Origin: Candidatus Woesearchaeota archaeon
GTDB taxonomy: Archaea > Nanobdellota > Nanobdellia > Woesearchaeales > UBA10216
Assembly: GCA_016185705.1 (NCBI GenBank)
Contig: JACPMZ010000010.1
Coordinates: 64,913 to 128,912, forward strand
Reading direction: 5' to 3'
Length of the DNA stretch: 64,000 bases
A program made the translations under genes and the position numbers. The notes beneath the pieces were generated by a model that saw nothing but the letters and a program-made list of their open reading frames with translations, was not told the origin of the DNA and did not search any database. This document shows, piece after piece, positions 1,127 through 26,165 of the stretch (positions within the stretch are counted from its first letter, which is position 1; the number at the start of each line of letters is the position of its first letter).

Positions 1127-1744
1127 TCACCGCGCAGTCTTCAGCATCTTCAGCCGTGAGAAGTTGTCGCGTTCCATTTCTTCCAGCCGGAATCTTATGT
1201 AGGCGGCATCTCTGTTTAGCCGGGGTATGGTTATTTGTTCCAGCGCGTTAACTTTTCTTTTTGTTCTTTCAATTTCCTTTAGAAGCCGCTTGAGCGTGAT
1301 GTCTATTTCTGCTGCTGCGATAATTTTCTCAACTAAGCTTTCGTATGCTTCTGCTGCTTCATCTATTTTTGAGGTTGCTGACAGCAGTCCATAGCCGCGT
1401 TCAAAGATGCTTTTTTTTACCTCTCCTGACTTTATTGAGGGTATTTTGACTCCCATTATGTTTTTTGTTTCAAGCTCTACCAGTGGCTGCCGCTTTATTG
1501 ACATTGCCGCAGATTTTATTTGGATGTCGCTGTCTATTGCGCGCGCTATGTTTATTTTTCCCAAAGCGCTGCGGTGCTCCTCAATAAGCGCTGCCCTTAT
1601 GTTTCTGGCTTTTTTCAGGATGCTGAAGAATTCCAGAATAAGACCGTCGCGTTTTTTCCTCAGGAGCTTGTGCCCTGACACTGCCAATGTTATTTTTTTC
1701 TTGACAAGCAGAAGCTCACTTCTTGTCGGCTTTACGTCTGCCAT
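1127..1744 (-). CDS. atpD: A/V-type ATP synthase subunit D
   Basis: [30 protein letters not shown] subunit D signature; last gene of the atp operon. Confidence 0.93.
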
Positions 1745-4499
1745 AGTATTTTGACCTCATTTCAGGGCTTATTCTGCCCAGCTCGTTTTCAGGGATTTCA
1801 GAAAGCAAGCTCCATCCTATGTCGAGCGTTGATGTGATGCTGCGCTCTTCGTTTTTGCTTTGCTTGACAAATCGGTTTTCAAATTCTGCTGCAAATTTCA
1901 GCAGCCTCCTGTCTCTTTCTGAAAGCGATTCCTCTCCCACTATGGCTACCAGTCCGCGCAAGTCCCTGCCTTCTGCGTAGAATGCATACATCTGGTCTGA
2001 TGCCTGCTTGTGGTCTTCCCTGGTTTTCTCTGCTCCAATTCCGAGATTCATGAGCCGTGAAAGGGAAGGCAGCACGTCTACAGGCGGATACACGTTGCGC
2101 CTGTGCAGTTCCCTGCTTAGGACGATTTGGCCTTCGCAATTGGAAACTATTATGCCGTTTTCGACTATAAAATTATGTGTTTTTGGTACGGTAACATCAT
2201 AAACTGAAGGCTCTCCGTCGACATTCTTTATTGAAATTATTTCGTCAAGAATAAAATTATTTTTTATTTTTTCCGATGCGCCTATTGTTGGCGGCAGTGT
2301 TGGTGATTTATCGAAATGCGTTGCCTTGAATTTTTCTTTTTTGGACAATTCTTCCAACAGGATTTTTCTTTCTTGATGCCTAACGTAGGGCAATATTTTT
2401 TTGGAAAGTATTTTGGCATAATAACTTTGAACCGTAAGCTCGTTTAATCTGCTGCCAAAACTTGCTTTGCCTTGATTTAGCGGCCTTATTGTGCTGGGAA
2501 TTCCTAACCGTTTTAGCAGTTGCTGCAGTCTCTTCATGCGCTTAAAATCCATGTCATTTGTGAATTTTTTGCGATATCTTATTCTGTTAAATTTTATGTC
2601 GCAATTGCCGTCACCATCAAAATATCCGGCTATGAATGCCGAAATTAATCGCTTGTCAAGAGAAAACAGTCCTGCCCAGTCCTCTGTGAGTTTCAAAGAA
2701 TGGGCAATCTCTGTTATTAAACAACTCGTCGCGCTTAATTGCGTTACATCGTGCTGATTTTTATGCTCCCACAGAGCTGTTTGGGGGAATAGTGCCTTAA
2801 AGGTATTTTTGTATGCTTTGATTAAATCGCTATTTTTGTTATTAAAATGGACTTGATATGCTTTATCATTTAAACTGCCATCAGAAAAAACAAGCCCATA
2901 CAAATACATTAAATCCTCATTGATTTTTTTCCATCTTAGTGATGTTTTAGTGCCGTTTATGACGGACACTGCTTCGATGTTTTTCAGAATTTCTTTAATG
3001 CTAATATCGAAAGTATTTCTAATCTGCCCCAGTTCTTTTGCATACAGAATACAAAGAGGGTGTGTGATTCTTACATAGCTTATTCCTAATTCTCTGCAGC
3101 CGCTTTTTATGTCCTTGTAGCCTGTTGCCAGCTTTTTTCTTATTTTTAGAATAAACTCTTTTCTTAGCGTAAAAACAAAATTTTTCCTGGCATTTGCGCA
3201 AATTTCCAGTATATTTGGTCTCTTTTCTTTTACTACATCCAGCTTCTTTAATGAAAATGCTCTGTCATTTATCTTAATTTTTCTTGCTTCAATCATTTTT
3301 GGGCCTTGCGGGGAGTCTATCAGGAATCTGTGGTCTCCTGTTGCTTTTACTTTAACGCCAGACCTGAACGTAAGTTCTAAAAGTTTTGCTCGCGTACTTA
3401 TTTTTTGGGAATCTGAAACTGAATAATAGCCCGGGTTGCCATTAACAGAAAGTATAGAGCCTTTTTTAAAGTTCTCTACAAAAGATTTTATTGGTAATAG
3501 CTCGCCTTCATTTTTAATTATTTCAGTTTCTCCTGATAGGCAAATGTATCCGCTTAAGTCAGGTATTGGGTGCGTGATGTCATCTCCTATCATTGTGAGG
3601 ATTGGCAGCTGGGTTATTGAGCCTTTTTTGCCTTTTATCATGCCAGCTCTTTCGTAGATGTTTGCTAAGGCAGTATACATGTATCCCGGATATCCGCGCC
3701 TGCCGGGGATTTCTTCCCGCGCTGAGCCGATTTCACGCAAAGACTCCGCATAGTTTGTCATATCAGTCAGTATTACCAGCACATGCATGTCCTTTTCAAA
3801 TGCCAGGTATTCGGCAGCTGTCAGCGCAAGCTGCGGGGTAAGCAATCTCTCAACAGCCGGGTCGTTCGCCAGATTCAGGAATACTGCTGAGCGTTCAAGC
3901 GCTCCTGTTTCTTCAAAGTCTTTTATGAATCTCTGCGCTTCTTCGTTGGTTATGCCCATGGCAGCAAATACTATTGCGAAGCTGCTTTCTTTTCCGACTA
4001 CTTTTGCCTGCCTTGCTATCTGCAGCGCTATTTCGTTGTGCGGCAGCCCTGACGCTGAAAAGATGGGCAGTTTCTGGCCGCGAACCAGCGTGTTCATGGC
4101 ATCTATGGTGGATACGCCTGTTTGTATGAAGTCGCTTGGGTTTGCTCTTGAGTACGGATTTATTGCTGCTCCTGATATGTCAAGTTTTTTTTCAGGCACA
4201 AGTTCAGGGCCTCCATCAATTGGTTTGCCTGCTCCGGAGAATATTCTGCCGAGAAGCTCTTTGGACACTGACAGCCGTATGGGCTGGTTTAGGAATTTGA
4301 CGCGGCTGTTTAAGTCAATGCCTGATGTTCCTTCAAACACCTGCACTACCACCACGTCTTCGCTGGTGTCCAGCACTTGTGCATTTTTTTCTTCGCTCTG
4401 CATCAGTATTTTTACCATGTCGCCGTAAGCAACCGGCTCTGTTTTTTTTACAAACACCAGTGGCCCTGCTACTCTGCTGATTGTTTTGTATTCCTTCAT
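1716..4499 (-). CDS. atpB: A/V-type ATP synthase subunit B interrupted by an intein
   Basis: Extein with subunit B motifs ([41 protein letters not shown]); 927 aa against about 459 aa after removing the intein. Confidence 0.95.
2139..3542 (-). other. Intein (about 468 aa) with LAGLIDADG homing endonuclease domain
   Basis: Begins CLSGETEI after extein ...IPDLSGYI; contains TGDHRFL block B, two LAGLIDADG-like motifs ([23 protein letters not shown]); ends [13 protein letters not shown] followed by Cys+1 and extein [11 protein letters not shown]. Confidence 0.94.
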
Positions 4500-4726
4500 T
4501 TTTGTTCACCAAAAATTAAGCTACGAACGCAGTGAGTTTGCTTCATTTTTGTTCACCAAAAATTAAGCTACGAACGCAGTGAGTCTGCTTCATTTTTGTC
4601 CACCAAAAATTAAGCTACGAACGCAGTGAGTCTGCTTCATTTTTGTCCACCAAAAATTAAGCTTACAGCTTTGTTGTAAGCTATGAGCGAAGTGAATATG
4701 CTGCGAACACGGTGAGTCTGCTTCAT
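4496..4726 (-). repeat. Tandem 47-bp repeats (x3) plus an 86-bp variant between atpA and atpB; each unit is a mini-ORF chained by ATGA
   Basis: ATGs at 4726, 4640, 4593, 4546, then atpB at 4499. Encoded peptides: [77 protein letters not shown]. Each stop TGA overlaps the next ATG. Confidence 0.95.
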
Positions 4727-6432
4727 TTTAATTCTGCTTCCATTTGTTTGTTTAGCGAATCCAGCTGTTTTTGGTAGTCTTTTGCGAATTTCACTTCCGC
4801 AAGCCTGTCCTTTGACTTGGCTGCCGCTATTTCAGAAACTTTTTTTCCTGACTTCAGCGCGCTGTATGCCAAATCCCCGTATTTTAATATGGATTTCATG
4901 AAAGCGTACGTTTTCTTTGGCTCTGAGTATGTGTCTATGTCGTGGAACGCATTTTGCTGCAGCATGACTTCCCTTATCTGCCTGGCTATCTGCAGTGTTA
5001 CCTGTTCCCGCTCAGGCAGCGCGTCTGACCCTACCAGTTGCACTATTTCTAGGAGCTTTTCTTCTTCCTGCAGGATTGACATGATTTTCCTTATTGTTGC
5101 CTGCCAGTCCTCAGCTACGTTTTTTGCAAACCACGGCTCTAATGCGTCAAGGTACAGCGAGTATGATGTGAGCCAGTTAATTGCCGGGAAGTGCCTTCGC
5201 TGTGCCAGCTTAGCATCCAATGCCCAGAAGCATTTTACCACTCTCAGCGTGCCTTGCGTCACTGGCTCTGAGAAGTCTCCTCCGGGAGGCGAGACTGCTC
5301 CGATCACTGATATTGAGCCTTCTGAATCGTTCAGGTTCTTGTAGCGCCCTGCCCGTTCATAGAATTCAGCCAGCCGTGTTGAAAGGTAAGCCGGGTATCC
5401 TTCTTCTCCGGGCAGTTCTTCAAGCCGTGAGGATATTTCTCTCATCGCTTCTGCCCATCTTGATGTTGAGTCTGCCATCATCGCCACGTCATAGCCCATG
5501 TCCCGGTAGTATTCTGCAAGCGTTATTCCGCAGTATATGCTTGCTTCCCTTGCTGCTACCGGCATGTTGGAGGTGTTTGCAATTAAGATGGTCCTGTTCA
5601 GCAATGGTTTTCCTGTTTTTGGGTCTTTAAGCTCAGGAAACTCTGTTAATACTTCTGTCATTTCGTTTCCGCGCTCGCCGCAGCCGACGTATACTATTAT
5701 TTCTGCGTCGCTCCATTTGGCCAGTTGCTGCTGAGAAACGGTTTTTCCGCTTCCGAAAGGCCCGGGTATTCCTGCCACGCCGCCTTTCGCTAATGGAAAC
5801 AGCGCGTCGAAGATTCTTTGTCCTGTGATTAGCGGGGTGTCGGGTGTCAGCTTGTTCTTGGTTGGCCTGGCTTTTCTTACCGGCCATTTCTGCATCAGCT
5901 TTATTTCTCCTCGGTCAAGTTTGCATACAGTTTCGTCCACAGTAAAGGAGCCCTGCTTTATTTCTGTTATTTTTCCGCTGAGGTTTGGAGGCGCCATTAT
6001 TTTGTGCGCTATCTGCCCTTCCTGCACCTCTCCGATAATGTCGCCTGCTTTTACTTCATATCCTGTTTTTGCGGTTGGTTTGAATTCCCACTTTTTTCTT
6101 CTGTCAAGCCCCGGTGCTGTTGCTCCGCGCTTTATAAAGTCGCCCATCTGCTTTTGCAGCGCTTCAAGCGGCCTTTGTATGCCGTCGTAGATTGAGCTCA
6201 GGAGTCCCGGGCCAAGTTCTACTGTAAGCGGCTCTCCTGTGTTTATTACCGCAGCGCCAGGCTTGATGCCTGTTGTGTCCTCGTATACCTGGATTGTGCA
6301 TCTGCTTCCGTTTATCTGGATTACTTCTCCCAGCAGCTTTTCCTCGCCTACCAGCACTATGTCGTACATCCTTGCGTCCAGTTCTGCCACAGCCACCGGA
6401 CCTGCCACTCTGTAGACTTTGCCTGTTTTCAT
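4723..6432 (-). CDS. atpA: A/V-type ATP synthase subunit A
   Basis: [40 protein letters not shown]; catalytic subunit motifs. Confidence 0.97.
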
Positions 6433-6717: not shown

Positions 6718-7749
6718 TTATACGATTATTTGTTTTTCCGTGAATTGCTCGCTTAATGACAGTTGCCGCGCTTTCAGCATGAGCTTAAGATTCTTTACCT
6801 CTATTTCTTTGGCAAACATGTATCCGAGTATTACGTCTATTGTCAGCGGGTGCTGGTGGAGCAGCAGCTTTGTTTTTTTGAGCAGTGTCTTTCCCAAATC
6901 TGTCTCTATGCCAGCTATGCTGCCTGCAGCAAGGTAGTTTTTTGAGGCATCTTCCGATATGCCGTACGGCAGCAGCAGCTTTATGGTTTCTTCTTTGCTG
7001 TCTGTGTCAATTATTCTTTTTACAGTGGCTGATGCTTTTCCTATGACAAAGTTTGGAAGCTTGTGTTTGTCTGTTCCCGCTTTTTTTAGCCGCAGTGCGT
7101 TGATTATGTTGTTAGTGTCCATTTCAGCTTCCAGGAATTGCTTGAATAGTTTGCCATCACTTGGAATTGATTGGGAGAGCTCTATCATTCTGTTGTAGTG
7201 CTCTCTGTCAAGAAAGTTTTCGATTTCTATGATTGTGTTTTGCGTTTTTAGCGATTCGTATGCGTTGCTCAGTTTTTCGAATTTTATTCCCGCTGCTTCA
7301 AGCTTTTTAAGGAATTCTTCCATGCTCTGCGATTTTATCAGGGATTCAAATTCCCGGGTGAGCCTGCCTGTTTGCATGAGCATTGAAGCGATGGTTTCAG
7401 GGCTTGTTTTTGTATGCAGGCCGCGCAGTATCGTTTTTATGTTCCAGAGGTCGGCGCGAAGCAGGTAGGTGTCTATAAGGCCGTTTATTTCTTTTGGCGA
7501 GATTTTTCGCAGCTTATTCCACGTGTCTGTAAGGTTTTTGTTGAGCGCCATTTCCATCAGCTCAACTCCGGAATGCTTTACTCCCAATTCGTCTATTGAT
7601 CGCTTGTATTCCAGACTTTGAAGGAAGCTGATTATTTCGTTCAGGCTCATTTTCATGATTTTATCATAGTCCTCTTTATGCAGCAGGCTTGAGCGCATGA
7701 CGCTTACCCTGGCATAGGTGTATGGATATGTTCTTCTTTGAAGCTTCAT
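6718..7749 (-). CDS. atpC: A/V-type ATP synthase subunit C
   Basis: YARVSVMRSSLL N-terminus, helical subunit C/d-like, operon position. Confidence 0.9.
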   Translation of the reverse strand: MKLQRRTYPYTYARVSVMRSSLLHKEDYDKIMKMSLNEIISFLQSLEYKRSIDELGVKHSGVELMEMALNKNLTDTWNKLRKISPKEINGLIDTYLLRADLWNIKTILRGLHTKTSPETIASMLMQTGRLTREFESLIKSQSMEEFLKKLEAAGIKFEKLSNAYESLKTQNTIIEIENFLDREHYNRMIELSQSIPSDGKLFKQFLEAEMDTNNIINALRLKKAGTDKHKLPNFVIGKASATVKRIIDTDSKEETIKLLLPYGISEDASKNYLAAGSIAGIETDLGKTLLKKTKLLLHQHPLTIDVILGYMFAKEIEVKNLKLMLKARQLSLSEQFTEKQIIV

Positions 7750-7882
7750 TTTTGCCCACCAAAAATGAAGCTACGAACACAGTGAGTCTGCTTCATTTTT
7801 GCCCACCAAAAATTAAGCTTACGACATTGTTGTAAGCTATGAACGTAGTGAATATGCTGCGAACACCGTGAGTCTGCTTCAT
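7746..7882 (-). repeat. Second locus of the same 86-bp + 47-bp mini-ORF repeat, between atpE and atpC
   Basis: ATGs at 7882 and 7796, then atpC at 7749: MKQTHGVRSIFTTFIAYNNVVSLIFGGQK*, MKQTHCVRSFIFGGQK*. Perfect 13-bp inverted repeat AGCTTCATTTTTG-(GTGGG)-CAAAAATGAAGCT at 7742-7772 includes the atpC ATG. Confidence 0.95.
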
Positions 7883-8430
7883 TTTTGTGTGAATAATATT
7901 CTGTCCAGCTCTGGAAGCGTTGACTCCCTGAGCTGCGTCAGTAATGTTTCGTAGCTGTAGTCAACCCGCAGCATGCCGTCCGTTGATTCTGCAATTAGGC
8001 CGCCGAGTATGTTTGTTTCCGCAGTTTTATACTTGGCTGCGTGTTTCAGGTCTTTTTTGCTGCAATAAATGCGCGCTATGTCTATTTCACTGGATGCTTT
8101 TGTGAGCAGCGCTTTGATGTGCTTTGCCCTTTCCGCGTCAGGCAGTTTCTCCAGCTTCCCTGATGCTTCCTGAAAGATTGAGTCCACCAGCTGCTTCCTT
8201 GACTGGAGCTCGAGCTTTTTCATTTCCAGCTTTGTGGCAGCTTGCTCGCGTTTTTTGATGAGCTCAATATCCTGCTGCAGGCGCTCAATGTATTCTGCTT
8301 CCTTTTGCCTGGCCTGCTTTGCTGTTGCGCTCACTATTGCCTGGGCTTCCTCTCTCGCTGCCTGCACTCGGCTTCCTGCTTCAAGCTCTGCCTCCTGCTT
8401 CACTTTTTCCTTTACCTTTTCAAGTCCCAT
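7879..8430 (-). CDS. atpE: A/V-type ATP synthase subunit E
   Basis: MGLEKVKEKVKQEAELEAGSRVQAAREEAQAIV coiled-coil stalk subunit, operon position. Confidence 0.9.
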   Translation of the reverse strand: MGLEKVKEKVKQEAELEAGSRVQAAREEAQAIVSATAKQARQKEAEYIERLQQDIELIKKREQAATKLEMKKLELQSRKQLVDSIFQEASGKLEKLPDAERAKHIKALLTKASSEIDIARIYCSKKDLKHAAKYKTAETNILGGLIAESTDGMLRVDYSYETLLTQLRESTLPELDRILFTQK

Positions 8431-11154: not shown

Positions 11155-11449
11155 TTGTAGGGCAAAGATAAGCCACCTTCTGTCAAACCCCTTACCGGAT
11201 GGTTTGCCTTAACATTTGACTAAGCGCCATTGGCTTTCACCGACCGGGCAGCTGTCTCACCGTATCCCTTAGCAAGCGTCAATAGGTTAACTCTCAGCCA
11301 TTGCTGGCTGATTCGCCATATCATCCTTGGCTAAGGGCCGTGCTGTTTCTTCGCTGGAGCGCACCTCTCGGCACCTGCCTCTCGGCAGCGGTCCTTTGCG
11401 GTGGGTGGACTTTCCTGGGTTTCCCCGGCGTTAAGTACTTGCCCTACAA
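11155..11449 (-). ncRNA. rnpB: RNase P RNA (archaeal)
   Basis: Minus strand: TTGTAGGGCAAG...GGGGAAACCCAGGAAAGTCCACC...GGTGAGACAGCTGCCCGG...ACAGAAGGTGGCTTATCTTTGCCCTACAA; conserved GGAAAGTCC and ACAGAAGG-GGCTTA elements and a closing GTAGGGCAA/TTGCCCTAC stem. Confidence 0.95.
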
Positions 11450-24580: not shown

Positions 24581-24745
24581 GCTTCTGCCATAATACGCTG
24601 CTTGCGCTTTTCTCCTCTATTAACGGCAGTATCTCCGCAGCTTTTTTCCTCCGCGCTTCATTTCCGCCTCCCTTAACTTTTGAATGGAGGTGGAAAGCGC
24701 AATGGCAGCTAAAATATACGGTTTGCGGAGATACCTGCGAGGGAG

Positions 24746-24889
24746 GGTAATTTCAAGTTAAGTGGCAAAACTGTCGCACACTGCTCTGATTTTTTTCTCC
24801 CCCCCTTAAAAAATAAGGGGGGGAGAAAAAAATCAGCCAAGCAGGCATCTGCAAGCTCAGGATTGCAGGGCACACAACTTGACATTACC
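24746..24889 (+). mobile_element. MITE-like hairpin element, copy 1 (144 bp)
   Basis: Ends GGTAATTTCAAGTTAAGTG / GTGTGCCC-type GGTAATGTCAAGTTGTGTG (inverted); central perfect stem CTGATTTTTTTCTCCCCCCCTTA/TAAGGGGGGGAGAAAAAAATCAG; flanked by GCGAGGGAG on both sides (9-bp TSD). Confidence 0.88.
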
Positions 24890-24954
24890 GCGAGGGAGGA
24901 TAAAATAAAAAGCGATTGGGAAAAAGCAATGGGTAATCAGGAAAACGCAAGTAA

Positions 24955-25883: not shown

Positions 25884-26027
25884 GGTAATGTCAAGTTGTG
25901 TGTCCTGCAATCCTGAGCTTGCAGATGCCTGCTTGGCTGATTTTTTTCTCCCCCCCTTATTTTTTAAGGGGGGGAGAAAAAAATCAGAGCAGTGTGCGAC
26001 AGTTTTGCCACTTAACTTGAAATTACC
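25884..26027 (-). mobile_element. MITE-like hairpin element, copy 2 (inverted)
   Basis: Reverse complement matches copy 1 with about one difference by eye. Confidence 0.88.
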
Positions 26028-26165
26028 CATTCAGGATGGGGAAAATAAAGCGCTCGCTGGGTATCATTGGAAACTTTGCATAATAATTTTGAGGTGGAGT
26101 ATTAAGCGATGTGCAAAAATCTTTATAGCAAACTATTAAAAATGCTTGCTGCTTATCCTGCTTCT

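Follow-up and report, generated by a model that had tools for sequence, protein, structure and literature searches.

What does a perfect hairpin do at the start of an archaeal ATP synthase gene? In the stretch of 64,000 nucleotides from a woesearchaeotal archaeon analysed here (the window; contig JACPMZ010000010.1), the start codon of atpC is buried in such a structure, with an SD-like sequence at its loop. The first-pass annotation, made from the letters alone, concluded that a ribosome finishing an upstream mini-ORF would melt the stem and that translation of atpC would thereby be obligately coupled to the mini-ORF.

The hairpin at atpC and the tandem arrays

On the minus strand, positions 7772-7742 read AGCTTCATTTTTG-GTGGG-CAAAAATGAAGCT, a perfect inverted repeat of 13 bp that consists of an anti-start arm (7760-7772), the loop GTGGG (7755-7759) and a start-codon arm (7742-7754) containing the atpC ATG (7747-7749), while the SD-like GGTG (7757-7760) lies at the loop. 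Read directly from the strand, the hairpin described earlier is exact to the base. Perfect inverted repeats with arms of at least 11 bp and a loop of 3-10 occur three times in the window, the other two being a 23-bp pair elsewhere, and dinucleotide shuffles (n = 60) held on average 0.15 repeats of at least 11 bp and none (0/60) of at least 13 bp. The window also carries inverted repeats of ∼140 bp (24745-24890 and 25893-26030), in each of which a perfect hairpin of 23 bp is embedded (24786-24836 and 25937-25987). They flank a segment of ∼1 kb that could be invertible or could be an insertion-sequence-like element.

The gene belongs to an A-type ATPase operon on the minus strand, for which Pfam supports the E, C, A and B subunits: atpE (7879..8430; PF01991, E 2.4e-15), atpC (6718..7749; PF01992, E 1.8e-58), atpA (4723..6432; PF00006, E 2.5e-73) and atpB (1716..4499; PF00006, together with PF02874 on the first 266 residues). 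The atpB ORF has 927 aa and includes an internal stretch that by eye looks intein-like, with a homing-endonuclease-like part, and is a probable intein.

Between atpE and atpC lies a tandem array of 86+47 bp, and the atpC hairpin forms its final unit. Another array (86+3x47) separates atpA from atpB, and a third precedes nrdR on contig C7 at ∼184,010, where the upstream reading frame stops at a TAG within the first cap, the conserved word of the repeat. The source genome thus has arrays of 2, 4 and 2 units of 47 or 86 bp; its congeners have one or two units. Every unit reads as an open mini-ORF that ends in an ATGA, where its TGA and the following ATG overlap, an arrangement present on the downstream side in 8/8 units of the source genome, and the chain runs from atpE through two mini-ORFs to atpC and from atpA through four to atpB. 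In the first array, the long mini-ORF 1 (7793..7882, minus strand; translation MKQTHGVRSIFTTFIAYNNVVSLIFGGQK, then stop) overlaps the atpE stop with its ATG, and mini-ORF 2 (7746..7796, minus strand; MKQTHCVRSFIFGGQK, then stop) overlaps the atpC ATG with its TGA. The upstream mini-ORF proposed in the first pass therefore exists, and its layout recurs in 27 copies from 17 genomes. In the second array, also on the minus strand, the ATG of the long mini-ORF 1 (4637..4726) overlaps the atpA stop; it is followed by mini-ORF 2 (4590..4640, cap 4615-4630), mini-ORF 3 (4543..4593, cap 4568-4583) and mini-ORF 4 (4496..4546, cap 4521-4536), the TGA of which overlaps the atpB ATG.

Only the last atpC unit has the perfect form. 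The other 7/8 units of the genome, namely the first of the atpC array, the four before atpB and the two before nrdR, show the imperfect version GCTTaATTTTTG-GTGRR-CAAAAATGAAG, with an A opposite the G of AUG. Both wider regions fold better than shuffled sequences, with z = -2.5 (5/200 shuffles as good) and z = -2.6 (0/200). A scan of the window against Rfam gave archaeal RNase P as the sole match at gathering score and none at the arrays; the RNase P RNA gene lies at 11158-11446 on the minus strand.

A repeat family at gene starts

The hairpin is one copy of a family of short repeats, carried by woesearchaeotal archaea at exact gene starts. The family is apparently undescribed, and our literature search returned no account of such repeats in Woesearchaeota. 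Genome-wide counts come from pattern searches with the cap plus CATTT. Copies were found in 18/352 genomes of the window's order, Woesearchaeota being among the named records with matches, while the reversed pattern had 0 matches and the phylum sample gave no match to the pattern in genomes outside the order. After curation the gene-start set comprises 27 copies, drawn from 17 genomes in six families.

A copy consists of a left arm with ATG, which repeats the start of the gene, then the cap ACTCACTnnCGTTCGTA, followed by the anti-start arm, a linker that in most copies has an SD-like sequence, and the real start. In the last atpC unit the conserved cap word is CTCACTGTGTTCGTAG (7771..7786, minus strand; the reversed control pattern had 0 matches). 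The arms differ between host genes: L119 has ATGCAAGC/GCTTGCAT before the gene start ATGCAAGAA, L138 has ATGAGGC/GCCTCAT before ATGAGGC, CTTTCATTTCGA stands upstream of TCGAAATGAAA in L123, and CCAATTTGA stands upstream of TCAAATTG in L184, which has a TTG start. The cap has two or three central bases, and in typical copies with the shorter cap the arms, too, lack one base on either side, so that the frame of the mini-ORF is kept. Upstream of atpB, both congeners (G001 and G002) carry the repeat in diverged form; the arms of G001 have changed jointly (ATGAAAGC/GCTTTCAT, gene start ATGAAAG), and the mini-ORF encodes a different peptide with the ATGA ending retained. In a related genome (G042; L139, L142 and L144) we noted a multi-hairpin repeat of ∼250 bp with several cap-like words, present in at least five places.

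The genes downstream of the copies are diverse and housekeeping. Since they are unrelated to each other, a metabolic regulon was dropped as an explanation. An origin from viruses was likewise set aside, as no match in IMG/VR was obtained.

Occupied and empty sites point to an element that probably moves. The atpE-atpC junction is a bare ATGA in both congeners, and the element is missing from atpB in most members of the window's family as well as in most of f10, the family with the largest number of copies, so that ancestral conservation at atpB is rejected. The sister genomes G237 and G238, whose atpB N-termini are identical in 108/120 residues, represent an empty and a filled site; in the filled site of G238, 33 bp of host sequence are duplicated around the cap and an inverted arm. 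An empty and a filled orthologous site together with a host duplication are features of a mobile element.

Arm matching, coupling and competing explanations

The covariation in homologous copies whose absence would have spoken against the hairpin is present. In the 27 gene-start copies the pairing of the anti-arm with the start of its own gene extends over 10.2 bases on average vs 8.0 for other genes (0/20,000 permutations), the covariation score is 0.242 vs 0.092 +/- 0.015 in shuffled and ≤0.10 in slid controls, and 9/13 helix pairs have changed on both sides, statistics that have to be read with the shared ancestry of the copies in mind. Since the search imposed CATTT on most copies, some of the helix follows from the search itself and only the pairs outside this word are free evidence; most covarying pairs lie outside it.

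The reading frame is conserved as well. The stop of the mini-ORF overlaps the gene start (ATGA or TTGA) in 17/27 copies, and the spacing between the two ATGs is 2 mod 3 in 19/27 (p ∼9e-5). For genes that begin with ATGA a stop is always available, and therefore the frame and its openness are the informative part. Five gene starts were set by hand (L125, L164, L184, L127 and L128), and that of L007 is a GTG. Uncoupled copies include L119 with an early stop, L135 with an in-frame fusion and L134 with a stop 31 nt short.

In the predicted folds of the 27 copies the gene AUG is paired with a mean probability of 0.82. A second hairpin, formed by the left arm and the anti-arm, competes and would leave the gene start free; it is the more stable one in 9/27 copies. 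When the whole leader between atpE and atpC is folded, long-range pairings compete and lower the predicted pairing of the atpC AUG to only 0.28-0.57, about half. Coupling, as suggested in the first pass, is made plausible by the mini-ORF overlap, the covariation and the AUG pairing, and is now better supported than on first reading. Its obligate character, however, does not follow, given the mismatch at the AUG in 7/8 units, the half-paired atpC AUG and the competing hairpin.

We propose, with a probability of about 0.6, that these copies are a dispersed, apparently mobile hairpin repeat at gene starts that stays compatible with expression through translational coupling. A ribosome leaving the upstream gene, or initiating at the leader, would translate the mini-ORF in frame through the anti-arm and would thereby open the hairpin of anti-arm and start. 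It would stop at the TGA of the ATGA, where the same ribosome or a newly bound subunit could start the gene. Without ribosome traffic the start codon would be held in the hairpin, with the SD in the loop. The family, its anatomy, the open mini-ORFs with their overlaps, the covariation of arms and genes and the empty and filled sites are observed; on this proposal the mini-ORF would be translated, the hairpin would lower uncoupled initiation and the element would move. For archaea, coupling driven by translation at ATGA overlaps is established (PMC6728339). Coupling of the unfolding type is established too (PMC6728339, PMC12548453), and both may act at the woesearchaeotal copies.

The same arms could also arise at the DNA level, from a selfish or mutational hairpin repeat that duplicates the host site and adds to it a fixed cap and an inverted copy, in the order copy, cap, inverted copy, copy, while the RNA hairpin regulates nothing. 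At gene starts, in-frame versions alone would survive, as the rest would disrupt translation. The duplication of 33 bp of host sequence in G238, the mismatched arms tolerated by the source genome and the identical cap at many non-coding places agree with such an origin, and so do copies near tRNA genes. In G000 and G001 the cap lies between direct and inverted copies of a sequence resembling a tRNA 3' end (L195-L198 and L200). One of these loci, L197, adjoins a tRNA-Ser predicted by ARAGORN, and host matches at L196-L198 and L200 are 12-bp inverted and 10-17-bp direct. These host-matched arms stand beside tRNA 3' ends without a start codon, and arm matching alone is therefore no proof of translational control; it may be made at the DNA level. 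By itself, however, this origin does not explain why pairs outside the fixed word match in most gene-start copies, and it leaves the SD in the loop unexplained. As a full account of the gene-start copies we consider it rather unlikely.

A further alternative takes the two hairpins as exclusive states of an RNA switch, left arm with anti-arm as ON and anti-arm with gene start as OFF, and has the cap bind a protein or ligand. Both hairpins can form in most copies (mean -9.3 and -11.2 kcal/mol), and a conserved cap between variable arms would suit a binding site. The downstream genes share no pathway, however, intergenic repeats and tRNA introns carry the cap too, RNase P is the only Rfam match in the window, and the pairing of the left arm with the anti-arm is shorter and less well matched than that with the gene. 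We give this alternative little credence.

The cap is also found in inserts between tRNA positions 59/60 in G002 and G028, and in G028 additionally in a 39-nt tRNA-Phe intron (L035, L192, L193, L194 and L191 are the cap-bearing inserts of the two genomes). ARAGORN reported no tRNA at most tRNA-like loci, but three after removal of the insert and one with its intron option. That gene-start copies could be archaeal BHB introns, which the tRNA splicing endonuclease would excise from the mRNA to restore the bare junction, is very unlikely and was rejected: the 59/60 inserts, serving as positive controls, have the strict BHB motif in 4/4 cases and in 3/4 their removal yields a recognised tRNA (tRNA-Arg, tRNA-Glu and tRNA-Arg), whereas the motif occurs in 3/27 gene-start copies vs 3.7 expected from shuffles, none of these excises exactly one copy, and the conserved mini-ORF frame would lack an explanation.

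Comparable elements and meaning of the repeat

Among known kinds of element, the mycobacterial MIRUs are closest to the coupled repeat proposed here, which appears to work like a MIRU. MIRUs (40-100 bp) enter host genes at the start codon, and the ORF they bring along is coupled to that gene with a spacing of -4 nt (PMC12548453, PMC2734929). Both are short, apparently mobile tandem repeats at start codons with a coupled ORF and have nearly empty orthologous sites in relatives; the woesearchaeotal repeats, too, have units of 40-100 bp at several intergenic sites in variable tandem number, and an internal ORF with overlapping stop and start in the 17/27 copies given above. They differ in sequence and domain of life, a distinction drawn by description and not by alignment, in a cap that is common to tRNA introns, and in arms matched to each host gene, which are not mentioned for MIRUs (PMC12548453, PMC2734929).

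In translational coupling of the hairpin type, the downstream start likewise pairs within the upstream ORF and stop and start overlap (PMC6728339, PMC12548453). Covariation and predicted folding indicate the same pairing of the start region here, but the role of the upstream ORF falls to a mini-ORF carried by the repeat, which stands before unrelated genes and can be present four times in tandem. The transposed tRNA introns of Thermoproteales are similar short inserts in several tRNA genes (PMC4033280). The woesearchaeotal tRNA copies resemble them and have BHB motifs, whereas the gene-start copies show such motifs no more often than chance and retain an open reading frame. The palindromic elements of Rickettsia are short palindromic repeats tolerated in a coding context because they are in frame. 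The woesearchaeotal copies are also short, palindromic and in frame; the Rickettsia elements, however, lie inside ORFs, while the copies described here occupy the exact junction of stop and start, with arms that match the site.

A broader proposal, which we put forward tentatively and with the odds against it, is that DPANN archaea have a new class of mobile DNA, in which a fixed hairpin cap would enter tRNAs, in their loops and at their 3' ends, as well as gene starts, and have its arms built from the host site as copy, cap, inverted copy and copy; at gene starts the element would make its own gene-matched translational switch with a coupled mini-ORF. The repeat would bring a MIRU-like insertion at start codons to an archaeal lineage, including core genes such as those of the ATP synthase, and would add a property beyond this likeness, the matching of arms to each host gene. 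One repeated cap sequence links tRNA introns with mRNA leaders, and the copies may serve as a natural set of constructs for coupling by unfolding vs reinitiation.
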